Shown piece by piece: positions 10,086-30,603 of a stretch of 40,241 nucleotides of DNA (position 1 is its first letter; every line of letters begins with the position of its first letter). The position numbers were made by a program, and so were the translations under genes. The DNA lies in assembly GCA_937124585.1 (NCBI GenBank), contig CAKZKT010000112.1:1-40241 (forward strand). The letters are read 5' to 3'. The stretch is from an uncultured Anaerolineae bacterium. GTDB lineage: Bacteria > Chloroflexota > Anaerolineae > CG2-30-64-16. A model generated the notes under the pieces. That model worked only from the letters and a program-made list of their open reading frames with translations. It was not told the origin of the DNA and searched no databases.

Positions 10086-10115
10086 TGTTGCGATTTTCCA
10101 TGCAGGAGATGCCGA

Positions 10116-10571: not shown

Positions 10572-10684
10572 GGGCGCGACAAATGGTTCGTGTCCGTGGG
10601 GTAGGCGCTTTACAGGACACCAGGGCGCGCCGGCTGGCCTCGTCGCGTGCGCAATTGGCGCAGACCGTTCCGTGCCGCGCGCTT

Positions 10685-10852
10685 AAGATCGTTTTCATCA
10701 TCGCTATGCCGGCGGATGTGATCCACGGAATGAACGAGGGGCGTGTGGCTGAGTCAGGCACGCACGCCGAGCTGGTGGCGCTGGGCGGCCGCTACGCCGC
10801 GTCCTGGCGGGCGCAGATGCGGGAGGCGGAGGGCGGCGCGGGTGTGGTATAA
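10685..10852 (+). pseudogene. C-terminal remnant of an ABC exporter
   Basis: An open frame here (from about 10583) ends in ADVIHGMNEGRVAESGTHAE and continues LVALGGRYAASWRAQMREAE. That is the same ending as the intact exporter at 28717-30603 (IIHVMHDGRIVESGTHAE, then an identical stretch LVALGGRYAASWRAQMREAE). Walker A, signature and Walker B parts are missing, and the H-loop region is shortened to an unrelated IVFIIAM. This is what remains of an exporter gene that once followed the PqqD-like gene. Bases 10572-10684 show nothing I can recognise. Confidence 0.8.
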
Positions 10853-12562: not shown

Positions 12563-13360
12563 ATGGCTCGCCTTGACGTCCAAAATTTGACCGTCGGCTA
12601 CGTGATGAAGCGTAACCAGCGCGACCTGACGGCGGTGCAGGAGCTCAGCTTCACGGCGCGGGCGGGCGAGTTCGTGGCAATCGTCGGGCCGAGCGGCTGC
12701 GGTAAGACGACGTTGCTTCACACCATCGCCGGCCTGGTCGCGCCGCAACAGGGCCAGATCGCCCTGGACGGCCGACCGATTGACGGGCCGGGCCGGGAGC
12801 GGGCCATGGTGTTCCAGTCGCCGGCGCTGTTGCCCTGGCGATCGGTGCTGCGCAACGTGGCCTATGGGCTGGAGCTGCAGGGCGTGGCCCGCCGCCAGGC
12901 TGAGGGGATCGCGCGCGAGTGCCTGGCGCTGGTCGGCCTGGCCGATTTCGCCGAGAGCTACCCCGGCGAACTCTCTGGCGGGATGCAACAACGGGCGAAT
13001 CTGGCGCGGGCGCTGGCGGTGCAGCCCACGGTGTTGCTCTGTGACGAACCGCTCTCGGCCCTGGATGCGCAGACGCGCGAGTACATGCAGGCCGAGCTGC
13101 AGCGCATCTGGCTGGAGCGGCCGACGACCACCGTGTATGTGACCCATCACATCGCCGAGGCGATCTTCCTGGCCGACCGGGTGCTCGTGCTCTCCGCGTC
13201 GCCGGGGCGGATCAAGGCCGACCTGGCCGTGGATCTGCCCCGCCCGCGCAGCCTGAGCGTCCAGCGCACACCGGCCTTTCTGGCGCTGGAAGAGCGCATC
13301 TGGTCGCTGCTGGAGCGTCCCGCCTGGCTGGGCGCGAACGATGGATCGGCGGCGCGATGA
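12563..13360 (+). CDS. ABC importer ATPase, nitrate/sulfonate/taurine type
   Basis: 265 residues. Walker A GPSGCGKTTLL (~42-52), signature LSGGMQQR (~136-143), Walker B VLLCDEPLSALD (~155-166) and H-loop His in VTHHIAEA (~194) are all intact. The short length and the MVFQSPALLPWRSVLRNV Q-loop region match SsuB/TauB/NrtD-type ATPases, which energise uptake of alkanesulfonates, taurine, nitrate or thiamine precursors. GGAAAG precedes ATG 12563. Its last four bases overlap the permease start (ATGA), so the two are translationally coupled. The substrate cannot be read from sequence; the sulfotransferases downstream make a sulfur source attractive, by inference only. Confidence 0.93.
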   Translation: MARLDVQNLTVGYVMKRNQRDLTAVQELSFTARAGEFVAIVGPSGCGKTTLLHTIAGLVAPQQGQIALDGRPIDGPGRERAMVFQSPALLPWRSVLRNVAYGLELQGVARRQAEGIARECLALVGLADFAESYPGELSGGMQQRANLARALAVQPTVLLCDEPLSALDAQTREYMQAELQRIWLERPTTTVYVTHHIAEAIFLADRVLVLSASPGRIKADLAVDLPRPRSLSVQRTPAFLALEERIWSLLERPAWLGANDGSAAR

Positions 13361-14121
13361 GTGCATCCCGCCGCCGCCGCACGTTGCTTTCCCTGGCCTC
13401 GGTCGCCATCTTCCTGGCGCTGTGGGAGCTGCTGCCGGCCCTGGGGCTGGTCAAGCCGCTCTTCACCTCCTCGCCCAGCCGGATCTGGACGGCGGCGCAG
13501 TGGCTCTTTGCCAACGGTTTCTGGTACGATATCTGGGTCAGCTTCAGCGAGTTTGCCCTGGGCTTCGGCCTGGCGGTGGTGATAGGCATCGTGTTTGGCG
13601 TGGTGCTGGGCTGGTTCCCCACGCCGCGCGCCATGTTCGAGCCGTTCGTGATCAGTCTCTATTCTGTGCCGCGAGTGGCGCTGCTGCCGCTGATCATCCT
13701 GTGGCTGGGCATCGGCATTGAATCGAAAGTGGCGCTGGTTTTTCTCGGCGCCGTTTTCCCCATCATCGTCAACAGTATGTCCGGCGTGCGCGCTGCCGAT
13801 GAGACGCTCGTCCGCTGTGCGCGGTCCTTTGGCGCCAGCGAACGCCAGGTATTGTTGACAGTGGCGTTGCCGGGCAGCGTCCCGTTCATCATCACCGGTA
13901 TGCGCCTGGGCGCCGGGCGTGGGCTGGTGGGCATTGTCGTCGGCGAGCTGGTAGCCGCGCAGGCTGGCATCGGCCACATGATGGCGCGCGCCGGCGCAAC
14001 GTTTCAGACGGACAAGGTGTTTGTGGGCGTGATTGTGCTGGCGATCTTTGGGCTGATGCTGTCGAAGGGTTTGAGCACACTGGAAGCCAGAGTAGATGCC
14101 TGGCGGCCAGCACGAAAATGA
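13357..14121 (+). CDS. ABC importer permease, SsuC/TauC type
   Basis: 254 residues, ATG overlapping the ATPase stop by four bases. It has an N-terminal helix (LLSLASVAIFLALWELLPAL), further hydrophobic segments, and the EAA-type cytoplasmic loop (~150-175) around ARSFGASERQVLLTVALPGS, which couples to the ATPase. This is the normal length and topology of the BPD_transp_1 permeases of sulfonate/taurine/nitrate importers. The substrate-binding lipoprotein follows directly. Confidence 0.93.
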   Translation: MSASRRRRTLLSLASVAIFLALWELLPALGLVKPLFTSSPSRIWTAAQWLFANGFWYDIWVSFSEFALGFGLAVVIGIVFGVVLGWFPTPRAMFEPFVISLYSVPRVALLPLIILWLGIGIESKVALVFLGAVFPIIVNSMSGVRAADETLVRCARSFGASERQVLLTVALPGSVPFIITGMRLGAGRGLVGIVVGELVAAQAGIGHMMARAGATFQTDKVFVGVIVLAIFGLMLSKGLSTLEARVDAWRPARK

Positions 14122-14134
14122 GGAGACTTTTCCG

Positions 14135-15187
14135 ATGCTTCACAAGGTTTACCATCTCTCCTGGCGGCTTTTTCTCATGCTGCTCTTTCTGCTTGGTCTA
14201 GCCGCTTGCGCTACGCTGCCGCCGGTGATAACTGTTCAGCCAGCTTCGCCTGCCTTGCGCTCGCTGAAGGTTTGCACCAGCTCGGCCAGTCCCTCCCAGA
14301 TGAACGTACAGCACGCGCTCACTCAAAACTTGTTCTCCAGATACGGTATAGATGTGCAGGTGGTTGAGATTAGCGGCGGTTCGACCGCGATTACGGCGCT
14401 GATCGCCGGAAACGTTGACCTTTGCCAGATCGCCGGGGCCTCTATCGTTAACGCCGGAGTTGCTGGCGCCGAAGTTGTACTCGTCGGCGGCGTCATCAAC
14501 CAACAACCCTATTACCTTGTGACTCGGCCGGAGGTGCGTACATCTGCCGATCTGCAAGGGCGCGCGCTGGCCGTAAGCGGGTACGGCACCAGTTCCTATG
14601 CTGCTGCGGTGGCTGTGGTAGAACGGTTTGGCCTGACCCCTGACCGCGACGTGGCAGTGTTGTCCATTGGCGGACAGAGTGAACGGATGGCGGCCATGGC
14701 AGGTGGCAACGTTGCTGGCACTGTGCTGTCGCCGCCCCAGGCGATGCTGGCGGTGGCTGAAGGCTACAACCTGCTTTTCGATTTCGCCGACATGGAGCAA
14801 CCTTACCAGCACACAGCCATCGTCACCACGCGCAAATTCCTGAAAGAGCAGCCAGAACTGGTCAAAGCCTACATCCAGGCCACTTCAGAGGCGGTGTCAG
14901 CTATGCACGGCAACCGCGAGAGCGCCATTGCGGACATGGCGGCCTATCTGCAACTCGACCCAACGGAGCAGGCTGAGGCGCTGGAACTGACCTACGACCT
15001 GCTCATCCGCCGCCTGATGCAGGTGCGGCCTATGCCATCATTGCCCGGCATTCAGGCGCTGCTGGACGAATTGATACAGGAAAACCCGCAGGCAGCAAAG
15101 GTGGCGCCAATTGACCTTGTGGATACGACCATCCTAGCTGAGTTGGACGCAACTGGTTTCTTCACTGACTTGGGTGTGAACCCGTGA
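14135..15187 (+). CDS. ABC importer substrate-binding lipoprotein (SsuA/THI5-like)
   Basis: 350 residues from ATG 14135, preferred over ATG 14096 because AGGAG lies 9 bases upstream, the earlier start would overlap the permease, and 14135 opens with a lipoprotein signal (hydrophobic LFLMLLFLLG, lipobox LAAC, Cys25). The mature part has the type-II periplasmic binding fold of the NMT1/THI5/SsuA family: SLKVCTSSASPSQ, GIDVQVVEISGGSTAI, LIAGNVDLCQIAG. The protein captures substrate outside the membrane and delivers it to the permease. It overlaps the methyltransferase start by four bases (GTGA). Ligand unknown. Confidence 0.9.
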   Translation: MLHKVYHLSWRLFLMLLFLLGLAACATLPPVITVQPASPALRSLKVCTSSASPSQMNVQHALTQNLFSRYGIDVQVVEISGGSTAITALIAGNVDLCQIAGASIVNAGVAGAEVVLVGGVINQQPYYLVTRPEVRTSADLQGRALAVSGYGTSSYAAAVAVVERFGLTPDRDVAVLSIGGQSERMAAMAGGNVAGTVLSPPQAMLAVAEGYNLLFDFADMEQPYQHTAIVTTRKFLKEQPELVKAYIQATSEAVSAMHGNRESAIADMAAYLQLDPTEQAEALELTYDLLIRRLMQVRPMPSLPGIQALLDELIQENPQAAKVAPIDLVDTTILAELDATGFFTDLGVNP

Positions 15188-15981
15188 GTGAGATCGTATC
15201 GTGTTACGCAGGCAAGGCAGAACGCTATGCTCGCTTCCGCTGGGGATATGCGCCCGCAGCAATCTCCCAAATCATAGAGATAGCCGGGCTGAAGCCGGGT
15301 GATGCTGTGGCTGACATCGGTGCAGGGCCGGGTACGCTGAGCCAATGGCTATTAGCGCATGGGTTGCAAGTGTGGGCAGTTGAACCAGATGGCGGGATGC
15401 GGCGTCTAGCAGAGGCGGTATTGGGTGACAATATCAATTTTCGCAGTGTGGACGCCGCCGCCGAAGCCACTACACTTCCCTCGGCTTCCCAGCGCCTGAT
15501 CACAATTGGCCGCGCGCTGCATTGGTTCGCGCCCGAACCGGCGCTGTGCGAATTCAACCGCATCCTGCAACCGGACGGATGGTTGGCTGTGCTGGCGGTG
15601 CGTTGTACGGACGCTGCCCTGGAGGCGGCAGTGAAAGGGCTGGCAACCGAAAGCAACGGTTGTGATCTCTCCCACGGCAAACGAAGTCGCCCCACAGTGG
15701 CACGAGATTTCTATCTTCGGCGGGCAGGGCAGGTCGAGTTCCGTGTCCCAGCCCTGCAACAGGAACGCTGGCCTGACTTCATTGGCCGGCTTTCTACCTT
15801 TTCAGGCGCGCCCGATCCAGATGGGCCAGGGTTTACCCTGCTTGAACAGGCCGCGCGCCCGGTATTCGAGCGTTTTGCCATAGATGGAATGCTAACGATT
15901 CCTGTGGAGACGCAGGTATGGATGGGGCATTTGGTTGACGGCGGATACAGAGCATCTTGTCTTGGAGGATCTGACCAATGA
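15184..15981 (+). CDS. class I SAM-dependent methyltransferase
   Basis: 265 residues, GTG start overlapping the upstream TGA (GTGA). Motif I is ADIGAGPGTLSQWL (~43-56) and the acidic post-I residue is in VWAVEPDGGM (~67). RALHWFAPEPALCEFNRIL resembles the motif II/III region of Methyltransf_11/UbiE-like enzymes. The acceptor cannot be told from sequence. Tight coupling with the importer lipoprotein before it and the membrane protein after it implies one transcript. Confidence 0.88.
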   Translation: MSEIVSCYAGKAERYARFRWGYAPAAISQIIEIAGLKPGDAVADIGAGPGTLSQWLLAHGLQVWAVEPDGGMRRLAEAVLGDNINFRSVDAAAEATTLPSASQRLITIGRALHWFAPEPALCEFNRILQPDGWLAVLAVRCTDAALEAAVKGLATESNGCDLSHGKRSRPTVARDFYLRRAGQVEFRVPALQQERWPDFIGRLSTFSGAPDPDGPGFTLLEQAARPVFERFAIDGMLTIPVETQVWMGHLVDGGYRASCLGGSDQ

Positions 15982-16490
15982 ACGAGGGCGCTTCTCACGG
16001 CACGTCCGACGAACGGCCCATCGAGCCGATCTACGTCAGGATGTATTACGAGCATCAATACGAGGCGTTGGCGCGTGTCTCCAACTACGGCATTTGGGTG
16101 ACGCTCACCGTGATGTCGCTCAGCATACTGGTAGCGCTGTTCGCCTTCGACAAAGATGGTAGTAACAGCCTCGTCGTCTGGCTGGGGGCGCCTCTGTTGA
16201 TGGCGGCCGCTAACTGCTTCGCCATCATCTTCCTGAAGCAGGTGCGGACGGGGGGAGGTAATATGCACATTCGACGCGCCAAAGCTGTGCTGGCACGCTA
16301 TGCGCCTGAACTCCTGGACATAGAGCAGGAAGCCGACCACCGGCCGCATCCACAGCCACGGTCACGGCTACGGCGGTGGGTGCGTATCATCCCTAGTGCG
16401 CCGAAGGTCCAGTTGCTATTGCATTATGGTCTGGTCGTGTTTTTTTCTGCTGGCGCCGCTGATCTATTATTTCTCCTGATCCATGATTGA
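15978..16490 (+). CDS. small membrane protein of unknown function, three predicted helices
   Basis: 170 residues; the start overlaps the methyltransferase stop by four bases (ATGA). Hydrophobic segments lie at ~38-57 (IWVTLTVMSLSILVALFAF), ~67-86 (VVWLGAPLLMAAANCFAIIF) and ~148-168 (LLLHYGLVVFFSAGAADLLF). An Arg/Pro/His-rich loop (~118-140) lies between helices 2 and 3. I do not recognise the family. The arrangement in the biosynthetic operon suggests a membrane accessory of the neighbouring enzymes, but nothing more specific is supported. Confidence 0.75.
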   Translation: MNEGASHGTSDERPIEPIYVRMYYEHQYEALARVSNYGIWVTLTVMSLSILVALFAFDKDGSNSLVVWLGAPLLMAAANCFAIIFLKQVRTGGGNMHIRRAKAVLARYAPELLDIEQEADHRPHPQPRSRLRRWVRIIPSAPKVQLLLHYGLVVFFSAGAADLLFLLIHD

Positions 16491-19206
16491 GACATCTGCT
16501 ATGAGTTCCATGACATCGCATCTGCCACCCCTGTCACTTGATCTTTCGGTGACCACGCGTTTTCACCACGTGGCTACCGCTGTGCCCGATCAACCAGCGG
16601 TGGTGGATGGCGACCATTGCATCACCCATGCTGCCCTGGATGCCTGGTCGGATCTGATCGCCAGCGCTGTGGCCGCGCAGGCCGGCGCCCGTGCCAGGCC
16701 GGTGGCATTGCTCTGCTCTCAAGGCCCCAGTACATTGGCGGCTATGCTTGGTGTGTTGAAGGCAGGGGGTATTTATTGTGTGGTAGACCCGGCCATGCCC
16801 GCAGCGCGTCTCGCCCACATTCTGGCCGATCTGGCCGCCGAGCCTATCCTGACTGATCGCAACCATCTGGCGCTGGCCCAGAGCCTAGATCGAGTCGCGG
16901 GCCGCGTGCTGGAGATCGAAGGATTGGCCGCGGTGCCCTCCCCGACCAATCCTCTGCCATCGCCTGGGCTTGACGACCTTGCCGCGGTCTACTATTCCTC
17001 CGGCACAACTGGCCGCCCCAAAGGCATTCTGCGCGACCACGCAGCCCTGGTTCACCGGGCCTGGGTGGATACCGAGGTCGTCTCCCTGCGTCCTGGAGAC
17101 GCTGTGGCCTGGCTCTATTCCGCGGCTTACTCCGCCTCTGTCTCCGACATTTTTGGCGCGCTGCTCAATGGCGCTGCCCTGCACGTCTATCGCCTGCACG
17201 AACGGGGCATGGGCGATTTGGCCCACTGGCTGGACAGCCAGCAGATCGCCTCTCTGCATTTGCACGCGGATGTCCTGCGCCAACTCCTGGACGCCCTGCC
17301 CAGCGACCACATTTTCCGACACCTGCGCTATGTGCGGCCCTCTGATCGCGTCGCCATGGACGACCTGCGCCGATTGCGTCGCCATCTGCCGCCTGATTCT
17401 GTGATTGCGCACTCCCTCGGCTCAGGTGAAACTGGCCCGGTGGCCCGCTTTGTCCGCCGGGATGATACGCCGCTGGAAGGGGAGATAGCGCCCGTCGGTT
17501 TCCCGCTCGAAACAGTCGAGATCACCCTGCTCGATGCGGCAGGTCAGCCGGTGATAGGCGAAGGCATTGGTGAGATCAGGGTGCGCAGCCGCTACCTGGC
17601 GCGCGGCTACTGGAACCAGCCGGAACTGACCGCGCAGCGCTTCCAGACGGATCCTGCCGACTCGCGCTACCGCATTTACCGCATGGGCGACCTGGCGCGG
17701 CGGCGGCCTGATGGTATGTTGGAATGGCTGGGGCGCAACGACCGCCGCGTGAAGATTCGCGGCTACACGGTGGATCTAGAGGCTATCGAGAACGCGCTGA
17801 TCCGTCTGCCAGGCGTGCGAGAGGCCATCGTCGCCACCAAGCCAGCCGCCCGCGACACGGCCCTCGTCGCTTACGTGTGTCTGGGCCCGGCGGCAGTTGA
17901 GCGCTCGGTCAGCGCCCTGCGCGCAGCCCTGGCGCAAGAACTGTCCGCCTACATGTTGCCGGCGCGCTTCGTCCTCCTGGATGCGCTGCCCCGCCAGCCC
18001 AACGGCAAGGTGGATGTCAGCGCCTTGCCTGTGGCCGGCCAGACGCGTCCCGATCTGGCCGCGCCCTTCGTCGCTCCGCGCGGTGAGCTGGAGCAGCAGA
18101 TCGCCGACCTCTGGGCCGAACTGCTGGAATTGGACCAAGTCGGCGTGGAGGACAACTTTTTCGATCTGGGCGGGGATTCGCTCCTGGCGATGCGCATGGT
18201 GTTGGCGGTGGAGCAGGCGACGGGCGGTCATGTGCCGCCGGAGTTCTTCCGCACGCCAACGGTGGCGCATCTGGCAAGGGTGATCCCCCATGCGCGCCCC
18301 CCTGAGAATCTTGCGCTGCACCCGGTTGCAGGCCGCACGTTTGGCAAGAAGCGCGGGAGTTCGCCCCACGTCACACCTCGCCGCATAGTTAGCCATATAA
18401 CGTCTGCCGGCCCGGTCTGGCGCGGGCATGGTTTGCCTTATGGACTGGGGGTGCGGGTGCAGCGGATGTGGATCCGTTTACCGTTGATCCGCCAACAGTT
18501 GTTACGGCGCGCGGCGTCGTTCCAGGAATGGCTGACGATCCTGGGCCGCGCCGACTCGGGCGGAGGAGAACTTGAACTGAGCCTGTTGGCGAACACCTGG
18601 CGTTATTGGCGGGAAGCCTGTGTCCAACAGCCCGCTATCTTTACCCGGTGGGTCACCGTCCAGGGCATGGAGCACCTGGACGCCGCGTTGGCGAGTGAGC
18701 AGCCTATCGTGCTCGTGGGCACGCATACCGCCATTCGCGGCGGGGCCATGCGGATGGCTATCCGACAACGAACGGGGCGGAAGGCTTGGACCCTGGGGCG
18801 CACAGTAACGGGCGCACCGGATGCCGCAGCCAAGATCGTTTATGCGCGAGAGCTGCTGGCTCAAGGGGGGATTGTCCATGTTACAGGCGATGGCGCCCAG
18901 GGCACGCACGGGGTGGAACTGCCAGTGCATGGCCGACCCTGGCTCTTTCGCAGCGGCGGCGCCGAGTTGGCCGTGGACACGGGCGCAGTGATGCTGCCGG
19001 TCTTTAATACACTGGCTCGCAGCGGCCACATCACGGTGGAGTTTTTGTCGCCCTTGATCAGCATCCAGACGGCCAGGCAAGCGCAGATCGAGGATTTGAC
19101 CCGGCAATATGCTGCGCTGCTGGTCGCGCGTTGGCCGAGCCTGTTGAGTAATGTGAAGTGGGATAAGTTACAGCAGATCCTTGATTACGCGAGAGGTCTT
19201 GGGTAA
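16483..19206 (+). CDS. adenylation-carrier-acyltransferase fusion (NRPS-like)
   Basis: 907 residues. Adenylation domain (~20-510): A3 YYSSGTTGRPKGI (~169), A5 SGETG (~313), A7 YRMGDLAR (~400), A8 KIRGYTVDLEAIEN (~424) and A10 PNGKVD (Lys ~508) are all present. The carrier domain (~525-605) has the phosphopantetheine Ser in LGGDSLLAM (Ser566). A LpxL-like lysophospholipid/acyl acyltransferase domain (~690-905) is recognised by LVGTHTAIRGG, VELPVHGRPWLFRSGGAELA and AVMLPVFN. Such an enzyme would activate an acid, load it on the carrier and pass it to an alcohol or amine acceptor. The usual HX4(D/E) pair appears as His748 with Gly753, so the acid is missing or displaced. The start at 16483 overlaps the upstream gene by 8 bases; ATG 16501 is an alternative, and neither has a strong ribosome-binding site. 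The specificity code was not derived. Confidence 0.85.
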   Translation: MIETSAMSSMTSHLPPLSLDLSVTTRFHHVATAVPDQPAVVDGDHCITHAALDAWSDLIASAVAAQAGARARPVALLCSQGPSTLAAMLGVLKAGGIYCVVDPAMPAARLAHILADLAAEPILTDRNHLALAQSLDRVAGRVLEIEGLAAVPSPTNPLPSPGLDDLAAVYYSSGTTGRPKGILRDHAALVHRAWVDTEVVSLRPGDAVAWLYSAAYSASVSDIFGALLNGAALHVYRLHERGMGDLAHWLDSQQIASLHLHADVLRQLLDALPSDHIFRHLRYVRPSDRVAMDDLRRLRRHLPPDSVIAHSLGSGETGPVARFVRRDDTPLEGEIAPVGFPLETVEITLLDAAGQPVIGEGIGEIRVRSRYLARGYWNQPELTAQRFQTDPADSRYRIYRMGDLARRRPDGMLEWLGRNDRRVKIRGYTVDLEAIENALIRLPGVREAIVATKPAARDTALVAYVCLGPAAVERSVSALRAALAQELSAYMLPARFVLLDALPRQPNGKVDVSALPVAGQTRPDLAAPFVAPRGELEQQIADLWAELLELDQVGVEDNFFDLGGDSLLAMRMVLAVEQATGGHVPPEFFRTPTVAHLARVIPHARPPENLALHPVAGRTFGKKRGSSPHVTPRRIVSHITSAGPVWRGHGLPYGLGVRVQRMWIRLPLIRQQLLRRAASFQEWLTILGRADSGGGELELSLLANTWRYWREACVQQPAIFTRWVTVQGMEHLDAALASEQPIVLVGTHTAIRGGAMRMAIRQRTGRKAWTLGRTVTGAPDAAAKIVYARELLAQGGIVHVTGDGAQGTHGVELPVHGRPWLFRSGGAELAVDTGAVMLPVFNTLARSGHITVEFLSPLISIQTARQAQIEDLTRQYAALLVARWPSLLSNVKWDKLQQILDYARGLG

Positions 19207-19208
19207 AT

Positions 19209-20096
19209 ATGGTGCATCAAACGCGGGTCTATTTTGGGCATCACAAGTGTGCCAGCCAGTATATCAAGCATATCTTGACTCAAAGTGTGCGTTTGATGGG
19301 CTGGTCTGCTCGCTCAATGCCAACCCCATTCGTGTTGCCGATGGACTATCATCTGCGTGAGCCATTTACGACACAGTTAGAGCAACAACGCACCATGCTT
19401 GCAGGCGGCGAATACGACTTCATATCTATCGAGAATGCCGATAACGAAGCACTGTCTATCTTGGACGCCAATCGCAACTATCGAGGGTTTCATGTCATTC
19501 GTGATCCGCGCGACATCGTGGTGTCCGGCTATTTCTCACACAGATATTCACATCCTGTCAGCGCCGATCGTTTGCCCTGGCAGTGGGCGCATCGGTTACG
19601 CCTCGAGTCGCTTCCCGATATCGAAGATGGCCTGTTGGCAGAAATCGAGTATTGTGCGACCTACTTCGAGCGCTTACGGGCATGGAACTATCATCATCCA
19701 CGGATATTAGAATGCCGCTATGAGGAGATGATTCGCGATCCATTACAGGCTTTCGGCCAGATATTTGCCTTCCTGGAGATTCCACTCGCACATCCCGGTG
19801 CTGTGCTTGCGGTTGGGATGGCCGGCGGGTGGCTCAGGCACAAACTGTGGGGAGTATGCATCCAACGATTTTCACGCTTCCCTGAACCACTGCTTCGTGT
19901 TATTTTGTGGCGTAACTCATTTCGCCGACGTTCGGGGGGACGGCGCGCTGGGAGTGAAGACACCAAACATCATTACCGCAAGGGTATAGCCGGCGACTGG
20001 CGGAATTACTTCAGCCCGTGCGTCAAGGACGCCTTCAAGGCCTGCTACCCGGATTTACTGATCACACTCGGCTATGAAGAGAACAATCTTTGGTGA
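19209..20096 (+). CDS. sulfotransferase
   Basis: 295 residues, starting two bases after the previous stop. The 5'-phosphosulfate-binding loop appears as FGHHKCASQYIKHIL (~9-23; Lys13 would hold the sulfate), and the 3'-phosphate motif as HVIRDPRDIVVSGYFS (~95-110) with Arg and Ser. These are the two PAPS-binding signatures of Sulfotransfer_1-type enzymes, which move sulfate from PAPS to hydroxyl or amino groups of sugars or small molecules. The family is clear despite low overall resemblance to characterised members. It is in line with the acyl-activating enzyme and a second, different sulfotransferase. Confidence 0.83.
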   Translation: MVHQTRVYFGHHKCASQYIKHILTQSVRLMGWSARSMPTPFVLPMDYHLREPFTTQLEQQRTMLAGGEYDFISIENADNEALSILDANRNYRGFHVIRDPRDIVVSGYFSHRYSHPVSADRLPWQWAHRLRLESLPDIEDGLLAEIEYCATYFERLRAWNYHHPRILECRYEEMIRDPLQAFGQIFAFLEIPLAHPGAVLAVGMAGGWLRHKLWGVCIQRFSRFPEPLLRVILWRNSFRRRSGGRRAGSEDTKHHYRKGIAGDWRNYFSPCVKDAFKACYPDLLITLGYEENNLW

Positions 20097-21003
20097 GGCG
20101 AAAAACCAACAACCCACGTATGCCATGAATAGACCTTACGTGCGCGCCTATCATTGGATGCAAAATCGTCTGGTGCAAAACCTGGGCGATTATCTTGGCG
20201 CGATCGTGCTAGAGGCATTGGGCTTTCGTGTGATTAGCTGTCATTCGCGGTCGGGCCTCGGCATCAATCCAGGACGTTGTTTGCTGCCCATTGGGTCTGT
20301 TTTGTGGGATCGCACATTCGAACGCATCTCGGTTCCGGTTGACGTCTGGGGATGTGGCTGGCGCGGTGAGCCGCTGCGCGCTGACCTGAAAGAGCGAATT
20401 TCTTTTCACGCAGTCCGCGGGCCAGAGACTGTGCACGGGCTGGGGCTGCCGCCGGACATACCGCAGGGCGATCCAGCATTGTTGCTGCCGCGCCTCATGC
20501 CCCAGAAACCCAGGTCCCATGGCAAAGCCATGGTCATCCCCCATTATTACAGGGTAAACTGCATGTCAGCCGCCCGACGATGTCGCGATACCGGCTGTGA
20601 TATGCTATTGTCCAGCAGAATCATCAGCAAACCCGTGCCTGGCGTACGACCGTCGCCCTGGGGGATGTGGGCTATGGCGAAAGCACGGCTTAAACTTGGA
20701 GTGCCGATCGTCACTGGCAGGCAAGCCATCAACGCCATTGCTGGCGCCGGTTTTGTGTTGACCGGGAGTCTACACGGCGCTATCCTGGCGCAGGCTTACA
20801 GTATTCCTTGGGCAGCTTACAATGATGGATATGTGGATCTGCCGGCAAAATGGCATGACTGGGCAGCCTACCTGCGAGTTCGTATTGATTTCGTCTCTGA
20901 TCTGGAGGCAGGGCTGGATTGGTGGCGTGCTCAAGGATCCAGTGGAAGGATCCAAGATTTGGATCCTCTATTGACTGCGTTTCCGTACCATGGAATGCAG
21001 TAG
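20074..21003 (+). CDS. polysaccharide pyruvyl transferase family protein
   Basis: 309 residues from ATG 20074 (23-base overlap with the sulfotransferase). The in-frame ATG 20125 may be the true start because similarity begins at MNRPYVRAYHW; neither has a clear ribosome-binding site. Family marks: QNLGDYLGAIVLEALGF near the start, HAVRGPETVHGLGLP in the middle, and the conserved FVLTGSLHGAILAQAYSIPW near residues 226-245. Proteins of this family (CsaB/WcaK type) add pyruvate ketals to sugars, though many members have other nucleotide-dependent roles. Near the 3' end a 9-bp perfect hairpin, AGGATCCAA/TTGGATCCT (20947-20967), lies 37 bases before the stop. Confidence 0.82.
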   Translation: MKRTIFGEAKNQQPTYAMNRPYVRAYHWMQNRLVQNLGDYLGAIVLEALGFRVISCHSRSGLGINPGRCLLPIGSVLWDRTFERISVPVDVWGCGWRGEPLRADLKERISFHAVRGPETVHGLGLPPDIPQGDPALLLPRLMPQKPRSHGKAMVIPHYYRVNCMSAARRCRDTGCDMLLSSRIISKPVPGVRPSPWGMWAMAKARLKLGVPIVTGRQAINAIAGAGFVLTGSLHGAILAQAYSIPWAAYNDGYVDLPAKWHDWAAYLRVRIDFVSDLEAGLDWWRAQGSSGRIQDLDPLLTAFPYHGMQ

Positions 21004-21035
21004 ATGATGAACAACCACGTAAAGAGGATGACACG

Positions 21036-21752
21036 ATGAGGTCCTTCGTTATCTTTGGCATGGAGCGCACCGGCAGTTCTCTGCTGCAATCATTGCTGAA
21101 TTCTCATCCGCAGATCTGCTGCGAAGGGGAGTTGTTTCGTGTAGGACGTTGGCGTCGCTATATGCACCCAATCGCACGCATCTGGCAGCATCATCCGCTG
21201 CCCTACCTTGCGTACCGCCAACTGCGCGCTCGATTGCTGACGCGCAAAATTGTGTACGGCTTCAAGCTGCACACCAAACTGCATTCCGAACAGGTAATGG
21301 ATCCAACCGGCTTTCTACACGCTGTTCAGCGTAAAGATTGGAAAATCATCCACTTGGAACGGGCTTCCCTTTTTGACCAGGTAATTTCCGCGATGGCCGC
21401 TGCGGAAACCCAGCGATATTTCGGCCACAATCGTGGGCCAGAACCGACACCGCAACTCACTCTTCCTGTTGATGAATTGCTTGCACACTTGGTTTCAGCC
21501 TCTAGCATTCGTCAGCGCCATCGTCAAATCCTGGCTGGCATTCCCCACATGCTGGTTGTCTACGAAGATGATCTGGCTGATAGTCATAACTGGCCTGCAA
21601 CTGTCGCCCGAATCAGTGAGTATCTCAACATTCCCGCACCCTCGACTGTAGAAACCCGTGTCACCAAACCGTGGGGACGTCCTTACAGTGAGTTGATCAT
21701 CAACTATAGCGAACTCGTTGAGTTGGCGCGGCAAAATGGATATGATGTTTAG
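21036..21752 (+). CDS. second sulfotransferase (Stf0-like)
   Basis: 238 residues from ATG 21036, chosen because GAGGA lies 7 bases upstream and the protein opens at once with the PAPS-binding segment FGMERTGSSLLQSLLNSHP (~7-25). EGELF follows (~31-35), as in Stf0/trehalose-sulfotransferase-like enzymes, and the 3'-phosphate-binding region is HLERASLFDQVISAM (~106-120). It differs from the sulfotransferase at 19209, so two separate positions or two substrates are probably sulfated. It overlaps the next gene by several bases. Confidence 0.8.
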   Translation: MRSFVIFGMERTGSSLLQSLLNSHPQICCEGELFRVGRWRRYMHPIARIWQHHPLPYLAYRQLRARLLTRKIVYGFKLHTKLHSEQVMDPTGFLHAVQRKDWKIIHLERASLFDQVISAMAAAETQRYFGHNRGPEPTPQLTLPVDELLAHLVSASSIRQRHRQILAGIPHMLVVYEDDLADSHNWPATVARISEYLNIPAPSTVETRVTKPWGRPYSELIINYSELVELARQNGYDV

Positions 21753-22755
21753 GGCAACTGAGCTAGACTGCCAGGTGTTGGTTCCTGCTGTCTGGCAACG
21801 TTCCGGTGAGTTGGACTATCTGCGTGTCTACAACCCAGCTATCGTCCGCTTCCGCAACCGGTTGCTCATGGCCTATCGGGTAGACTCGGGCCGCCGCACG
21901 ACCATGCAGCGGCGCATCGGCCTATGCGCGCTGGACGACCGGCTTAACGTGGTCTCAGGTTCGGTCGTGTCCCTTTCCGACACCATCCGGGGCGGCGACC
22001 CGCGCCACTACGACCCGCGCTTCCTGGTCTACCGCGACCAGCTCTTTGTTCACTACAATAACAACTTCATGACCCGGCCCAACCAGATTTACCTGGTCGA
22101 ACTCGACCCGGACACGCTGGAAGCCAGATCGCCGGCACGACCACTCCATCTGGACGGCCCGCGCCAGGAGATCGAAAAGAATTGGATGCTGTTTGATCAC
22201 GAAGGCGACCTGCTCGCCGTCTACCAGATCGCGCCGCACACGATCCTGCGCGTAGACCTGACGGGGCAGGGCGCGATTGCGTGCCGGCCGCTCCATGTGA
22301 CAGATTGGGATGTGTCCGCCTATGCCGACCGTTTCGGAGCGCCCTGTGGCGGCGCGCCGCCCGTGCGCCAGGGAGACGCGTATGTATCGTTCTTTCACTC
22401 GCGCTACCCCGTCAGCCCGCTGCATTGGGCGTTGCGTTTCTGGCCGGTGAAACCAGGCACAGTGCTGCCGCGTTACGTGGCGGCGGTCGAACGACGGCTG
22501 CGTCGCCCCTTCGCCCAGGTGCGCTACGTGGCGGGCGCGTATGCCTTCGAGGCTGCGCCGCCCTTCCGCCCGCGCTGGATCACGCCGGAGCCGGTGCTGC
22601 GCCCGGAAGATGAGCCGCCTTACCGCCACCGCCACCGGGCCAACCCTTCCGCCGACGGCATCGTCTACCCGTGCGGGGCCATCCTGGAAGACGACGGACG
22701 CTGGCTGGTCTCCTACGGCGTGAACGACGAACACTGCTGTTTGCGCCACGTGTGA
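21736..22755 (+). CDS. glycosidase-like five-bladed propeller protein (GH43/GH130-like)
   Basis: About 339 residues from ATG 21736; TTG 21718 and ATG 21742/21745 are also possible, all overlapping the upstream stop. Repeated blade patterns are visible: NPAIVRFRNRLLMAYRVD (~26-43), DPRFLVYRDQLFVHYNN (~88-104) and EKNWMLFDHEGDLLAVYQI (~143-161), then a CGGAPPVRQGDAYVSFFHSR segment. This is the pattern of the GH32/43/130 propeller superfamily, where acidic residues at blade starts serve hydrolysis or phosphorolysis of beta-mannosides; I cannot assign catalytic residues safely. Its place after sulfotransferase and pyruvyl transferase genes suggests work on the same carbohydrate. Confidence 0.6.
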   Translation: MDMMFRATELDCQVLVPAVWQRSGELDYLRVYNPAIVRFRNRLLMAYRVDSGRRTTMQRRIGLCALDDRLNVVSGSVVSLSDTIRGGDPRHYDPRFLVYRDQLFVHYNNNFMTRPNQIYLVELDPDTLEARSPARPLHLDGPRQEIEKNWMLFDHEGDLLAVYQIAPHTILRVDLTGQGAIACRPLHVTDWDVSAYADRFGAPCGGAPPVRQGDAYVSFFHSRYPVSPLHWALRFWPVKPGTVLPRYVAAVERRLRRPFAQVRYVAGAYAFEAAPPFRPRWITPEPVLRPEDEPPYRHRHRANPSADGIVYPCGAILEDDGRWLVSYGVNDEHCCLRHV

Positions 22756-24151: not shown

Positions 24152-25267
24152 ATGCGCCAGGAACACGACCTTGCTGTCTACCTCGATGGCTGCGCCGGCG
24201 CTTTTGCCCAGGCGGAGCGTGCGCAAGAGCCGATGCACGAACACCTGCTTCAGATCGCCGGCATGACCATCCGCCTGCGCATCGCCGGCGCGGCCCTGGC
24301 TGAGGCCGCCCTGCCCGCGCTGGCGCACCTGCTGGACGGACGGGGGGACGGGCGAGGGGACGGGCGAGGGGACCTCGCCCCTACGGCGGCCGCCATCACC
24401 CTGCACCTGTGGGACGCCGCGGCGACCGGCGTTTGGCCGCCGCGGCCGCCCTTCACAGCGGACGACTACCGCCGCTACGGCCAGCGGGCGGTTGCGCATG
24501 ACGGCGTCCGCTCGCTGATGCACGCGCCCACCTCCGGCCAGCTCTTCGCCTATGACCGAGCCAGCCGCCAGGGCTATTTCTGGGTTGAGGACGCGGGCCA
24601 GCTCTCCATCTACGAGCGGGCCGCGCCCGCGCAAACGCTGTTTCACTGGGCGCTGGGCGAGTTCGGCTGGCAGATCGTCCACGCCGCGGCGGTGGGGAAC
24701 GAGAGCGGCGGCGTGCTGCTGATCGGCTCGACCGGCGCGGGCAAGTCCACCACCGCGCTGAGCTGCCTGGCCCAGGACGGACTGCGCTTCCTCAGCGACG
24801 ACAAGTGCCTGGTGCGGCTGGAACCGCAGCCCCAAGCCTTCGCCCTCTTCAGCTCGGCCAAGATCAAGGGGGACATGCTGCCCCGGCTGCCCCATTTCCG
24901 GCCGCTGCTGGCCGGGTGGGACGACAACTACAAGGCGGCGAAGGGGCTGGTCTTCCTGCATCCCACCTACGCCGAGCACATGGTGACGAGCTTCCCGGTC
25001 AAGGCGCTGCTGCTGCCCAAGGTGACGCATCAAACGCAGGCGGCGATTTATCCCGCCCCGTCCGCCGAGGTCTTCTGCCACTTGGGGCCGAGCACCGTCA
25101 TCTGGCTGCCCGGCGCAGAGGCGGACAACTATCGTTTCGTCGCGGAGATGGCCCGGCGGCTGCCCTGCTACCGCATCGAGCTGGCGGGCGATCTCCAGGC
25201 CAATATGGATGCCATCCGCCACTGGTTGGAGGAGACATGGGGAGCGAAAAGTCAACCATTAGCGTGA
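24152..25267 (+). CDS. HPr-kinase-like protein (HprK-related kinase A type)
   Basis: 371 residues from ATG 24152, which directly follows the previous stop; ATG 24233 is an alternative start. The P-loop GSTGAGKST (~192-200) preceded by IVHAAAVGNESGGVLLIG, then LSDDKCLVRLEP (~212-223), match the HprK C-terminal kinase fold as found in HprK-related proteins that accompany PqqD-like proteins. No phosphotransferase-system genes are near, so the target is unlikely to be HPr. Related kinases phosphorylate lasso peptides in some clusters. A 16-residue Gly-Arg-Asp repeat (24338-24385) interrupts the N-terminal part. The 3' end overlaps the next gene by 31 bases. Confidence 0.82.
   Translation: MRQEHDLAVYLDGCAGAFAQAERAQEPMHEHLLQIAGMTIRLRIAGAALAEAALPALAHLLDGRGDGRGDGRGDLAPTAAAITLHLWDAAATGVWPPRPPFTADDYRRYGQRAVAHDGVRSLMHAPTSGQLFAYDRASRQGYFWVEDAGQLSIYERAAPAQTLFHWALGEFGWQIVHAAAVGNESGGVLLIGSTGAGKSTTALSCLAQDGLRFLSDDKCLVRLEPQPQAFALFSSAKIKGDMLPRLPHFRPLLAGWDDNYKAAKGLVFLHPTYAEHMVTSFPVKALLLPKVTHQTQAAIYPAPSAEVFCHLGPSTVIWLPGAEADNYRFVAEMARRLPCYRIELAGDLQANMDAIRHWLEETWGAKSQPLA
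24338..24385 (+). repeat. in-frame GC-rich repeat with hairpin in the HprK-like gene
   Basis: Three GACGGGCGAGGG-like units end in a perfect 8-bp hairpin GGGCGAGG/CCTCGCCC (24362-24369 and 24373-24380, loop GGA). It encodes GRGDGRGDGRGDLAPT in the N-terminal domain. The hairpin core matches the intergenic hairpin at 36421-36453. Confidence 0.7.
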
Positions 25268-25935
25268 TCATCCCGGTCTACAACGGCGAGCGCTTCCTGG
25301 CCGAGGCGATCCAGAGCGTGCTGGCGCAGACCTTGCCGCCGGATGAGATCATCGTGGTGGATGACGGCTCGACCGATAGCACGGCACAGGTTGTGGCCGG
25401 GCTGTCGAGGACGGCGCTCGCGCCGATTCGTTATGTTTACCAGGCAAATCGGGGGCCTTCCGCGGCGCGAAATCAGGGTCTGCGGCTGGCGCAGGGCGAT
25501 GTGATCGCCTTTCTCGACGCCGATGACTGCTGGCCCGAACACAAATTGGCCGTGCAAATGGCTCATCTGGCCGCTTCGCCCGCAGCCGGGATGGCCTGGG
25601 GCATGGTGCAAATGTGCGAGATCGCCGACGGACATATGAAGCCAATTGCAGTACCACCGTGTTATGGGCCGAACGTGGGCAGCCTCCTGTTGCGCCGATC
25701 GGCATTTGAGATCGTTGGCCTGTACGACGAATCTTTACGCCTTGGCGAGGATCTCGAATGGCTCGCGCGTGCCCAGGAGCGTCAGCTGCCGTATGTGAGG
25801 CATTCCGATGTGGTTTTGTGGTATCGCTATCACGGAGGCAATGTATGGTTGGGGCAACCCAATCCTGAGCGCTCGGTCCTTCTCGTCGCCAGGAAACTGG
25901 TGGAGCGCCGACGTCAATCGGCGGCTGCGCGTTGA
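25237..25935 (+). CDS. GT2 family glycosyltransferase (first of two)
   Basis: 232 residues from ATG 25237, inside the end of the HprK-like gene, with GGAGGAGA just upstream. The N-terminal GT-A fold reads ISVIIPVYNGERFLAEAIQS, IIVVDDGSTDST (~36-47) and the metal-binding FLDADDCW (~92-99), as in inverting family-2 transferases using nucleotide-sugars. No C-terminal membrane helices, so it acts in the cytosol or at the inner membrane face. It pairs with a second GT2 gene 25 bases downstream. The sugar and acceptor are unknown. Confidence 0.92.
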   Translation: MGSEKSTISVIIPVYNGERFLAEAIQSVLAQTLPPDEIIVVDDGSTDSTAQVVAGLSRTALAPIRYVYQANRGPSAARNQGLRLAQGDVIAFLDADDCWPEHKLAVQMAHLAASPAAGMAWGMVQMCEIADGHMKPIAVPPCYGPNVGSLLLRRSAFEIVGLYDESLRLGEDLEWLARAQERQLPYVRHSDVVLWYRYHGGNVWLGQPNPERSVLLVARKLVERRRQSAAAR

Positions 25936-25960
25936 CCAGGTGCGGAATTCGTGAGGTGGC

Positions 25961-26662
25961 ATGGAGGAGAGCCAGCTTCATAGGTGTTCAGACGTCAGCG
26001 TCATTGTCGTGGTCAGGAACGGCGCGCGCTTTCTGGCGCAGGCGCTGGACAGCATCTTCCGACAAACCTGTCCTCCCGCCCAGGTGATCGTAGTAGATGG
26101 CCAATCCGACGACGGCACAGATTGCATCGCGCGATCCTGGCCAGACGTGCTGTATGTGGAACAGGAGATGCTCGGCCTGGCCCGGGCGCGCAATCTGGGG
26201 CTCCAGCACGCGCACGGGGAATTCATCGCGTTCCTCGATCACGATGATCTGTGGATGCCGGACAAATTATGCATTCAAATCGGCTTCATGCGCGGCCATC
26301 CAGAGATCGCCTACACCACCACCTGTTTCGAGTGGTTCGTAGACTTGGAGCACAAGACCACCATTGACCCTCAAGATCATCGTCTTTCGACGCCGCAGAC
26401 TGCCCCTACCCCCAGCGCCCTAGTCGCCCGCCGCACGGCGTTTGCGCAGAACGGTCTGTTTGACCAGGAACTGACGATCGCTTGCGATTCGGAGTGGTTT
26501 GCCCGCGCGCGACGACGCGGGATCGCCAATAAAACGATCCCCCATATCCTGCTCCGCAAGCGCCTGCACGATGCGAATCTCTCGGCGCATGCGGCGCGAT
26601 ACCGGAGCGAATGGTTGCGCGTTTTGCATGCGTTGCCCAAAGGCGAGGCCATGCAGCCATGA
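25961..26662 (+). CDS. GT2 family glycosyltransferase (second)
   Basis: 233 residues. VSVIVVVRNGARFLAQALDS (~10-29), VIVVDGQSDDGT (~43-54) and FLDHDDLW (~90-97, in place of DXD) define the GT-A fold. Probably a paralogue of the preceding gene by ancient duplication. The 3' end overlaps the epimerase start by four bases (ATGA), so the two are coupled. Confidence 0.92.
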   Translation: MEESQLHRCSDVSVIVVVRNGARFLAQALDSIFRQTCPPAQVIVVDGQSDDGTDCIARSWPDVLYVEQEMLGLARARNLGLQHAHGEFIAFLDHDDLWMPDKLCIQIGFMRGHPEIAYTTTCFEWFVDLEHKTTIDPQDHRLSTPQTAPTPSALVARRTAFAQNGLFDQELTIACDSEWFARARRRGIANKTIPHILLRKRLHDANLSAHAARYRSEWLRVLHALPKGEAMQP

Positions 26663-27486
26663 GCGGAACTCCGGCACGGCATGTGCTCATCACCGGCGCG
26701 CTCGGTGAATTAGGAACCATCTTGATCCGGGCGCTGACAGATCATCCCCGCTATCAGCTGATCTTAACGGACCGGCGCACACCGGTCGGGCTACTTCCGC
26801 AGCCGTTTGTCCGCGCCGAGATCACGGATTTGGCCGCTATCCGCCCGCTGTTTGCCGGCGTGGATACGGTGGTGCATCTTGCGGCAGAGATGGGCGATGT
26901 GCCATGGGAGGCGCTCTGCGCCAGCAATATCACCGGCACATACAACGTGCTGCTGGCCGCCAGCGAAGCCGGTTGCCGTCGGGTTGTGTTCGCCAGCAGC
27001 AGCCATGTGATCCTGGGCGGTTGGGCCGGCGCGCCCCTCGACAGCCATGCGCCGGTGTGTCCCAGTACTCTGTACGGCGCCAGCAAGGCTGGCGGCGAGG
27101 CCCTGGCCGGCTATTTTGCCCAGCGGCGTGGCCTTTCGGTCATCTGCCTGCGACTCGGCTGGGTGACGCCATATGATCACCCACGGCTGACGCCGGCCAG
27201 CTCCGCCCTCGATCTGGTGATTACGCCGGGAGATTTCGTGCGTCTGATCGTCGCCAGCATCGAAGCGCGCGATGAGCTGCGTTTCGGCATCTTCGCCGGC
27301 CTCTCCGATAACAAGCGGAAACGGCTTGCCATTGATGAAACCCGCGACGTGCTGGGCTATGTGCCGCAGGACGACGCGTTTGCACTGGCATGGCGCAACT
27401 ACAGGGGCATGCTGCGGCGTTTCCTGGGCAAAGTGCGTCGCGTTGTGAGCCGGAGATGGGGAAGTAGAAACACCGATGTCGGATAG
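26659..27486 (+). CDS. NAD-dependent epimerase/dehydratase (extended SDR)
   Basis: 275 residues from ATG 26659 (ATGA overlap). The cofactor loop is ITGALGELG (GxxGxxG, ~11-19). The active site has Ser in FASSSHVILGG (~112-122) and Tyr139/Lys143 in YGASK. The AEITDLAAI segment is the usual place for the second NAD contact. Members of this family epimerise or dehydrate nucleotide-sugars, or oxidise uronates (the short length and the STLYGASKAGGE pattern resemble uronate dehydrogenase-like members). It probably provides a sugar for the two GT2 enzymes; the substrate is inferred. Confidence 0.87.
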   Translation: MSGTPARHVLITGALGELGTILIRALTDHPRYQLILTDRRTPVGLLPQPFVRAEITDLAAIRPLFAGVDTVVHLAAEMGDVPWEALCASNITGTYNVLLAASEAGCRRVVFASSSHVILGGWAGAPLDSHAPVCPSTLYGASKAGGEALAGYFAQRRGLSVICLRLGWVTPYDHPRLTPASSALDLVITPGDFVRLIVASIEARDELRFGIFAGLSDNKRKRLAIDETRDVLGYVPQDDAFALAWRNYRGMLRRFLGKVRRVVSRRWGSRNTDVG

Positions 27487-28716: not shown

Positions 28717-30603
28717 ATGAGAACAGACCGTCGCGGCCGCCGTCTGCACCGCGTTGACCAACACGCCGAGCAACTTCTCTCCATCCGCGGCCAGTTGGCG
28801 CAACTGCGCCATGTTCCTCGCGCGCTCAGGCTGGTTTGGCAGGCAGCCGCGAACTGGACGAGCGCCACCATCGCGCTGCTGGTGATCCAGGGGTTGTTGC
28901 CCATCGCTACCGTCTATCTGACCCGCGACGTGATCAACGGCCTGGTGCGCATCATCGGCAGCCACGGCGACCTGACCGTCCTGGCCGGCGCGCTGCCGTC
29001 TATGGCGCTGTTGGCCGGCGTGATCCTGCTGACCACCGTGCTGGGCAGTGTGCAGAGCTTCGTGCGCACGCTGCTGGCCGAGCGCGTGCAAGATCACATG
29101 AACGCCCAGATCCACGCCAAGGCGCTGGCCCTCGACCTGCAATTCTATCAGTCGCCGGTTTACTATGACCAGCTCCAACGTGCCAGCGTGGACGCGATCA
29201 ACCGGCCTCTGGAGCTGCTGGACAGCCTGGGTGGATTGCTCCAGAACCTGATCACATTGATCGCCATGGCCGGTGTGCTGTTTACCTTCGCCTGGTGGGT
29301 GCCGCTGGCATTGTTGGCCGGCACGCTGCCTGCGCTGTGGGCCGCGCTGCGCGCTACCTGGGCGTATCACCGCTGGCGCTTGCGCACCACCATGCAACAG
29401 CGTCGGCTTTTCTATTTCAACCGTATCCTGACGACCGATATCGCGGCAGCCGAGCTGCGCCTGTTCGACCTGGGCGGTCATTTCCGCTCGGCCTATCAGC
29501 AGTTGCGCCGCCGCCTGCACCGCGAGCGTAGACGTCTGTTGCAGAGTCAATTACTCGGTGAGTTGTTTGCCGGCCTGGCCGGCCTGGCGACGGTGGCGCT
29601 GATCCTGGGCTGGATGATCTGGCAGGCGCTGGCCGGCCGGTTCAATTTGGGCGACATGGCGCTGTTGTGGGCCGCGTTGGATCAGGGCCAGCGCCTGATG
29701 CGCAGCCTGCTGACCGGGATGGGGAACATCTATCGGAGTCTGCTCTTCCTGGAAGATCTGTTCGTCTTTCTGGATCTGGAACCACGGCTGCGCGACCCCG
29801 ACCGGCCCGTGGCCGTGGCGCCCGGCCTGCGCCAGGGCCTGCGCCTCCGCGATGTGACCTTCCGCTACCCCGAAAGCGCCACAGACGCGCTGCACCACTT
29901 CAACCTGGAGATCCCGGCCGGCCAGATCGTTGCCATCGTGGGCGAGAACGGCGCGGGCAAAAGCACGTTGCTCAAGTTGCTGTGTCGCTTCTATGATCCC
30001 CAGGAAGGCAGCATCACATGGGATGGCGTTGATCTGCGCGCCATGGCGCAGGCTGACCTGCGTCGGCGCATCACGGTGCTGTTCCAGGATCCGTTCCCCT
30101 ACCACGACTCGGCCGCCGACAACATCCGCTTCGGCGACCTGGCCAGCCGGCCCACGCAGGCTCAAATCGAAGCGGCCGCTCGTGCCGGCGGCGCGGCCGC
30201 GATCATCGCCCGGCTGCCGGAAGGCTATGAGACAATCCTGGGCAAGTGGTTCGGCTACACCGAGCTGAGCATCGGCGAGTGGCAGCGGCTGGCGCTGGCG
30301 CGGGCCTTCGTGCGCCAGGCCGACCTGATCATTCTGGACGAACCGACCAGCGCTATGGACAGTTGGGCTGAAGCGGAATGGATGGGACGTTTTCGTGAGT
30401 TGGCCGCAGGCCGCACTGCAGTGATCGTCACCCACCGCTTCACCACCGCCATGCAGGCCGATATAATCCACGTGATGCACGACGGCCGCATTGTGGAATC
30501 GGGCACGCACGCTGAACTGGTGGCGCTTGGAGGCCGTTATGCTGCGTCGTGGCGCGCACAAATGCGAGAGGCCGAGGCGCCGTCGGGCAGAACGTCGTCG
30601 TGA
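28717..30603 (+). CDS. ABC exporter, fused permease-ATPase (ABCB type)
   Basis: 628 residues. The N-terminal membrane domain (~50-330, six hydrophobic segments including TIALLVIQGLLPIATVYL) is followed by a nucleotide-binding domain: Walker A GENGAGKSTLLKLL (~409-422), signature LSIGEWQRLALARA (~518-531; LSIGE in place of LSGGE), Walker B LIILDEPTSAMD (~538-549) and H-loop VTHRF (~571-575). It works as a homodimer exporting peptide, lipid or glycolipid. There is no peptidase C39 domain. Its last 40 residues match the remnant at 10685. It is the last gene of the + strand cluster and converges with the DUF47 gene; no clear terminator lies in the 38-base gap. Confidence 0.93.
   Translation: MRTDRRGRRLHRVDQHAEQLLSIRGQLAQLRHVPRALRLVWQAAANWTSATIALLVIQGLLPIATVYLTRDVINGLVRIIGSHGDLTVLAGALPSMALLAGVILLTTVLGSVQSFVRTLLAERVQDHMNAQIHAKALALDLQFYQSPVYYDQLQRASVDAINRPLELLDSLGGLLQNLITLIAMAGVLFTFAWWVPLALLAGTLPALWAALRATWAYHRWRLRTTMQQRRLFYFNRILTTDIAAAELRLFDLGGHFRSAYQQLRRRLHRERRRLLQSQLLGELFAGLAGLATVALILGWMIWQALAGRFNLGDMALLWAALDQGQRLMRSLLTGMGNIYRSLLFLEDLFVFLDLEPRLRDPDRPVAVAPGLRQGLRLRDVTFRYPESATDALHHFNLEIPAGQIVAIVGENGAGKSTLLKLLCRFYDPQEGSITWDGVDLRAMAQADLRRRITVLFQDPFPYHDSAADNIRFGDLASRPTQAQIEAAARAGGAAAIIARLPEGYETILGKWFGYTELSIGEWQRLALARAFVRQADLIILDEPTSAMDSWAEAEWMGRFRELAAGRTAVIVTHRFTTAMQADIIHVMHDGRIVESGTHAELVALGGRYAASWRAQMREAEAPSGRTSS

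Follow-up and report, generated by a model that had tools for sequence, protein, structure and literature searches.

A putative self-loading acyltransferase from Chloroflexota with adenylation, carrier and LpxL/PatA-fold domains in a single chain

The window studied here is an entire contig (C112; 40,241 nucleotides) of the 4.8 Mb assembly of an uncultured Anaerolineae bacterium (Chloroflexota). It carries a gene for a 907-residue protein in which an adenylation (A) domain of the non-ribosomal peptide synthetase (NRPS) type and a peptidyl carrier protein (PCP) domain are followed by an acyltransferase domain related to LpxL and PatA. The gene and the parts of its product are located as follows.

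16483..19206, + strand: A-PCP-acyltransferase fusion protein, 907 aa, ATG start (open reading frame (ORF) list and Pfam)
16561..18009, + strand: adenylation domain (AMP-binding plus C-terminal part), residues 27-509 (Pfam; SSGTTGRPKG, YRMGDLA and PNGK509 all intact)
17131..17133, + strand: Ser217, at the position of the α-amino-binding Asp (PheA Asp235), the Asp being lost (alignment to LgrA)
18094..18285, + strand: carrier (PP-binding) domain, residues 538-601 (Pfam)
18178..18180, + strand: Ser566, predicted phosphopantetheine attachment site, in LGGDS (Pfam and motif)
18400..19203, + strand: LpxL/PatA-fold acyltransferase domain, residues 640-907 (Pfam, AlphaFold2 and structure match)
18724..18726, + strand: His748, predicted general base, equivalent to PatA H126, within GTHTAIRG (invariant, 71/71)
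18736..18741, + strand: Arg752 (H+4, four residues after the His) and Gly753 (H+5; Glu in LpxL/LpxM, Asp in PatA) (alignment)
18889..18891, + strand: Asp803, predicted charge-relay acid, equivalent to PatA E200 and LpxM D192 (alignment)

Pfam matched AMP-binding to residues 27-377 (E 3e-52) and AMP-binding_C to residues 435-509, both above the cut-offs, and the three intact motifs correspond to the A3, A7 and A10 Lys core motifs of NRPS adenylation domains. The PP-binding match (E 1e-14) contains a GGxS-type serine of carrier proteins (PCP or acyl carrier protein, ACP) in Ser566, the last residue of LGGDS. Lip_A_acyltrans (PF03279) was matched at residues 712-868 with an E-value of 3e-7 and 30.2 bits, against a family cut-off of 22.3 bits. 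No Pfam match to a condensation domain (PF00668) was found anywhere in the 907-residue protein. An earlier reading of this DNA from its sequence alone had proposed a one-chain adenylation-carrier-LpxL-type fusion; the ORF is as it described, the domains score above their cut-offs and homologues exist in other genomes. Ser566, His748 and the Gly at H+5 also lie where that reading had placed them.

The fusion is real because a full-length homologue, 49% identical and with identical domain order, is found in a genome of the same family (G004, locus L083) and further fusions occur elsewhere. Homologues of the same architecture in several genomes rule out chance or misassembly as its origin. The search for the same fusion that the sequence-only reading had suggested found it, besides G004, in G315 (two genes) and G308 (one) of the Chloroflexota sample and in G477 (one). 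The same domain order is present in G473 and G658 (Planctomycetota) and in G1699 (Acidobacteriota), the phyla of these three being those of named records that served as search centres (L054, L059). The order to which the window genome belongs is represented by ten sampled genomes in total, all of one family. The A-PCP-acyltransferase fusion is thus a family, but a rare one. A profile of the fusion domain (E 1e-20) had no match in 273 sampled Cyanobacteria and 398 Pseudomonadota; these searches lacked a positive control, so the absence is weak evidence. The search of Myxococcota returned one stand-alone relative, and a collection of plasmids gave no match. In a tree of the acyltransferases the fusions, the myxobacterial stand-alone protein and a protein from G736 (Planctomycetota) are split from 51 other sequences (100/99); there is poor support (48/14) for a common origin of the fusions by themselves.

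Two of these relatives carry additional domains. In G315 (L118, 8182-11682) a methyltransferase is placed N-terminally in a methyltransferase-A-PCP-acyltransferase chain of 1166 aa. The G736 protein (L156, 7786-9861, - strand; 692 aa) joins a sulfotransferase to an acyltransferase of this subfamily, a chain that links sulfation with this acylation. The G308 gene (L119, 9427-12216), which encodes activation, carrier and acyltransferase domains, is broken into two ORFs on one strand, which may reflect a frameshift, an error of assembly or a true split.

The acyltransferase domain was modelled with AlphaFold2 from a 14-row alignment (mean predicted local distance difference test score 87.3; predicted template modelling score 0.86). 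The top Foldseek matches of the model were PatA and LpxM. VIA-align gave a Z-score of 20.1 for PatA (219 aligned residues, root mean square deviation 3.1 Å) and 19.4 for LpxM; PlsC, the family ranked after them, scored 9.5. Because Z is around 20 for PatA and LpxM as against 9.5 for PlsC, the C-terminal domain is securely predicted to have the PatA/LpxM fold. A direct sequence search of the domain against solved structures returned nothing meaningful, and the link to PatA and LpxM came through relatives and the fold.

The sequence-only reading had regarded the acyltransferase as missing its catalytic acid, since His748 is followed by Gly753 where the family has Asp or Glu. This was not borne out. 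We realigned 71 acyltransferases (8 fusions and 63 others) together with PatA; PatA E200 was placed on Asp803 via a stand-alone relative, a HMMER alignment to the family profile and the full realignment. Both the His and the acid in block 3 are conserved in 71/71 sequences, all eight fusions included. His748 and Asp803 therefore match, in the alignment, the PatA-type dyad of a His and a block-3 Glu or Asp. Another nearby His-Asp pair fitting the family pattern was what the sequence-only reading had named as speaking against its claim, and His748-Asp803 is such a pair. The HX4D/E motif of LpxL and LpxM is absent: an H+5 acid occurs in none of the 8 fusions, compared with 51 of the 63 other sequences. 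The equivalent of PatA Arg164 (LpxM R159) is likewise lost in all eight (0/8 vs 59/63), and seven of the eight have gained an Arg at H+4, Arg752 in the window protein. These alignments are consistent with an intact His748-Asp803 dyad and with the loss of a second pair, the H+5 acid and its Arg, as a unit. Ten non-fused relatives that keep Arg164 are also without the H+5 acid. The same genome encodes a stand-alone LpxL-type protein (L004, 1390-2364; G000:C135) with Asn at H+5 (HMSNFN) and the block-3 Asp kept.

Published work on the two structural homologues bears directly on these residues. PatA H126 has E200 as its charge-relay partner, and the Asp of the HX4D motif, D131, does not play this part; E200A abolishes activity, D131A retains 37% of it, and the authors proposed that HtrB and MsbB also use the block-3 acid (PMC4792965). 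H122 of Acinetobacter baumannii LpxM forms a hydrogen bond with D192; E127, the H+5 acid, is at a distance of 7.6 Å and is paired with R159. A proposal of two dyads, H122-D192 and E127-R159, was put forward on these grounds (PMC6286764). The weight of the two acids differs from enzyme to enzyme. The loss at H+5 is a genuine change throughout the fusion clade and, since it accompanies the loss of the partner Arg and the appearance of an Arg at H+4, the fusions probably handle their acceptor differently from their relatives. Apart from this, the earlier suggestion of a missing acid, with altered chemistry or a domain that only binds, is mostly unsupported.

The adenylation domain departs from its relatives at the residue that normally binds the α-amino group. 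Alignment of 227 A-domain cores showed Asp at the 235 position in 0/6 fusion A domains and in 220 of 221 controls, a set gathered for its resemblance to the window and made up largely of amino-acid NRPS modules. The fusions have Ser (window and G473), Gly (G004), Thr and Gly (the two genes of G315) or Ala (G658), and the A domain of a seventh fusion, from G1699, has Ser (read by eye). In G477 and G308 the NRPS-type domain is replaced by an activation domain of the fatty-acyl-AMP ligase (FAAL) type. The A domain of the window protein has LgrA as its nearest match and is not of the FAAL type; only G477 and G308 are FAAL-like. The loss of the Asp235 equivalent together with the FAAL domains of two relatives points to an acid without a conventionally bound α-amino group. 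The remaining pocket positions, whose use for predicting the specificity had been advised, were read by eye and pointed to no substrate. Between the window and G004 proteins the A domain is 38% identical, the PCP 74% and the acyltransferase 65%. The far better conservation of PCP and acyltransferase indicates selection on the acyltransferase alongside a variable activation domain, and fits a conserved carrier-acyltransferase core with an exchangeable loading domain. The nearest named A domain (L006, 3199-5055; Caldilineaceae RH38) is 56% identical to that of the window. The L006 protein has no acyltransferase beyond the PCP, and its A4 region has apparently been deleted internally; it is encoded in G477, where the FAAL-type fusion sits on another contig.

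The genes around the fusion suggest the kind of product to which it contributes.

12563-13360, + strand: ABC uptake ATPase, kept in G004 and G315
13357-14121, + strand: ABC uptake permease, kept in G004 and G315
14096-15187, + strand: NMT1/THI5-type binding protein of the ABC uptake system; counterparts weakly similar
15184..15981, + strand: S-adenosylmethionine-dependent methyltransferase, a domain of the kind fused to the N-terminus of A-PCP-acyltransferase in G315
15978..16490, + strand: 170-aa protein, no family match, 8-base overlap with the start of the fusion gene
19209..20096, + strand: sulfotransferase, directly downstream of the fusion gene, 43% identical in G004
20074..21003, + strand: polysaccharide pyruvyl transferase-like protein, 59% identical in G315
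20919..21752, + strand: second sulfotransferase family protein, 43% identical in G315
21718..22755, + strand: weak GH130-like protein, 52% identical in G315
24152..25267, + strand: HprK-related kinase, 62% identical in G004
24805..27486, + strand: two family-2 glycosyltransferases and an NAD-dependent epimerase
28717..30603, + strand: MsbA-like ABC exporter, 71.5% identical in G004

G004 shares with the window the uptake ATPase and permease, a sulfotransferase, the HprK-related kinase, glycosyltransferases, the epimerase and the MsbA-like exporter. G315 also has the uptake genes, together with the pyruvyl transferase-like, sulfotransferase and GH130-like genes. Methyltransferases and substrate-binding proteins occupy matching places in both genomes with weak similarity to those of the window. 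The Chloroflexota fusions adjoin sulfotransferases and glycosyltransferases, with sulfotransferases beside the fusions in G004 and G315. This neighbourhood suggests that the product of the cluster is an exported, sulfated glycan or glycolipid.

From its domain content, fold and conservation, the fusion is best read as a protein that would activate an acid, hold it as a thioester and deliver it through an LpxL/PatA-type fold, as the sequence-only reading had supposed. We consider it probable, though by no means assured, that it is a self-loading acyltransferase which makes its acyl donor in cis and attaches a non-amino acid to a glycan or glycolipid of the cell surface. The A domain would use ATP to activate a carboxylic acid (fatty, hydroxy or aryl, for instance) without a conventionally bound α-amino group, and the intact LGGDS suggests that this acid is then loaded onto the phosphopantetheine arm of Ser566. 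The PatA/LpxM-fold domain would accept the acyl group from its in-cis carrier, in a way similar to the use of acyl-ACP by LpxL. Judging by the alignment with PatA and LpxM, His748, oriented by Asp803, would deprotonate an acceptor hydroxyl. As for the acceptor, the neighbouring genes make a hydroxyl on the sugar or lipid part of an exported glycan or glycolipid, one that also bears sulfate, the probable candidate. The loss of the H+5 acid and Arg164 pair and the gain of Arg752 would then reflect remodelled acceptor binding rather than a dead site. Several observations weigh against such an enzyme. The acyltransferase is just ∼ 20-25% identical to its non-fused relatives, and the planctomycete A-PCP-acyltransferase and acidobacterial fusions have no sulfotransferase neighbours in the stretches read. 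In Escherichia coli LpxL, moreover, E137A costs 3000-fold and D200A 15-fold (PMC6286764); there the H+5 acid outweighs the block-3 acid, so the site of the fusion could be weak or altered.

The LpxL result is also an argument for an inactive acyltransferase domain that merely binds acceptor or carrier while another enzyme does the chemistry, since the acid worth 3000-fold in LpxL and the Arg164 equivalent are both absent from all eight fusions. We regard this as quite improbable: the His and the block-3 acid are kept across highly diverged fusions from several phyla, the acyltransferase is, with the carrier, the most conserved part of the protein, and non-fused relatives (the ten with Arg164 and the stand-alone G000:C135) also do without the H+5 acid. 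An active domain might instead hydrolyse the thioester and discharge the carrier, as an editing thioesterase, with no acyl transfer. PatA does hydrolyse palmitoyl-CoA (PMC4792965). A partnerless A-PCP unit would need some discharge step, but the gene surroundings offer acceptor-type chemistry, which makes this explanation very improbable. To our knowledge there is no dedicated thioesterase among PF03279 members, which further counts against it.

Other alternatives concern the bond formed and the acid used. The NRPS-like adenylation-carrier architecture would suit acylation of an amine or peptide, the acyltransferase replacing a condensation domain and making an amide instead of a sugar ester, and the presence of PqqD-like and HprK-related genes in the vicinity is a hint of peptide chemistry. 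The characterised PF03279 relatives LpxL, LpxM and PatA make esters, however, and the neighbours are glycosyltransferases, a pyruvyl transferase-like protein and sulfotransferases; we think amide formation unlikely. The A domain could also activate an amino acid held by another amino anchor, such as a β-amino acid, which would make the protein a one-chain analogue of Dlt D-alanylation. Its matches include, at lower score, DltA and β-aminoacyl-ACP synthetases, and the alignment to LgrA places an Asp at the 278-equivalent of the pocket. Yet Asp235 is gone from all fusion A domains tested and two relatives have FAAL-type domains, so that this, too, seems rather unlikely.

The self-loading acyltransferase that we favour resembles several known systems in part. 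PatA, the phosphatidylinositol mannoside acyltransferase of Mycobacterium smegmatis, shares the fold, with His126/E200 aligned to His748/Asp803, and esterifies a sugar hydroxyl, as is proposed for the fusion; it differs in being a stand-alone enzyme that uses acyl-CoA, keeps D131 and R164 and has no adenylation or carrier domains. LpxM and LpxL (the lipid A acyltransferases MsbB and HtrB) share the fold, the logic of an acyl-ACP donor and the His-Asp pair (LpxM H122-D192). Their H+5 Glu and its Arg partner are absent from the fusion, whose carrier is in cis. E. coli Aas (acyl-ACP synthetase/2-acyl-glycerophosphoethanolamine acyltransferase) likewise combines activation onto a carrier and transfer in one chain, but with a PlsC-type acyltransferase, the reversed domain order and a separate ACP. 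NRPS A-PCP modules such as LgrA and gramicidin S synthetase 1 have similar adenylation and carrier domains and core motifs; unlike them, the fusion has lost Asp235, has no condensation domain and ends in a PatA/LpxL-fold domain. The G308 and G477 relatives are like FAAL-ACP didomains in that a carrier follows their FAAL-type activation domain. Known FAAL-ACPs deliver to polyketide synthase or NRPS modules (PMC11837247), whereas here an acyltransferase comes after the carrier and, in the window, the A domain is NRPS-type. Each domain is already known. No description of the fusion, its dyad pattern or its distribution was found in the searched literature, whose scope left out most subscription journals; the combination, the dyad pattern and the distribution are what is undescribed there.

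More tentatively, and at somewhat less than even confidence, we propose a rare, undescribed enzyme class of Chloroflexota, Planctomycetota and Acidobacteriota, in which a swappable activation domain (NRPS-type without Asp235, or FAAL), a carrier and a PatA/LpxL acyltransferase with only the His-Asp dyad attach acyl groups of non-amino acids to sulfated glycans or glycolipids of the cell surface. The usual lipid-A-type acyltransferases depend on acyl-ACP or acyl-CoA from other sources; one that produced its own donor in cis, through an activation domain open to exchange, would serve as a compact means of placing chosen acids on surface molecules. If the proposal is true, such fusions would be a natural test of the LpxM two-dyad proposal: the H+5 acid and Arg are lost naturally with the dyad kept, and the disputed roles of these residues in PatA as opposed to LpxL/LpxM become testable. 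The sulfotransferase and methyltransferase fusions of the relatives point to a chemistry, still unexplored, of acylated and sulfated surface molecules among Chloroflexota and Planctomycetota.

Some further features of the window were noted. A PqqD-like gene (10035-10571), the HprK-related kinase, an NTP_transf_5 nucleotidyltransferase (27476-28654) and the ABC exporter form a set reminiscent of lasso-peptide/HPr-rel-like systems. An 89-aa ORF (10583-10852) resembles an internally deleted remnant of an MsbA-like exporter, its N-terminal part being 54% identical to the start of the G004 exporter and its C-terminal part 75% identical to the end; the exporter at 28717-30603 is intact. AAA_22/AAA_35-type ATPases flank the fusion gene at 10892-12523 and 22946-24151 and match the same G308 protein (41% and 31%). 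A 2771-aa protein with Sortilin/BNR and PD40 repeats is encoded at 1570-9885, within which an antisense open frame of 1131 aa (2530-5925) is probably a shadow of high GC content.

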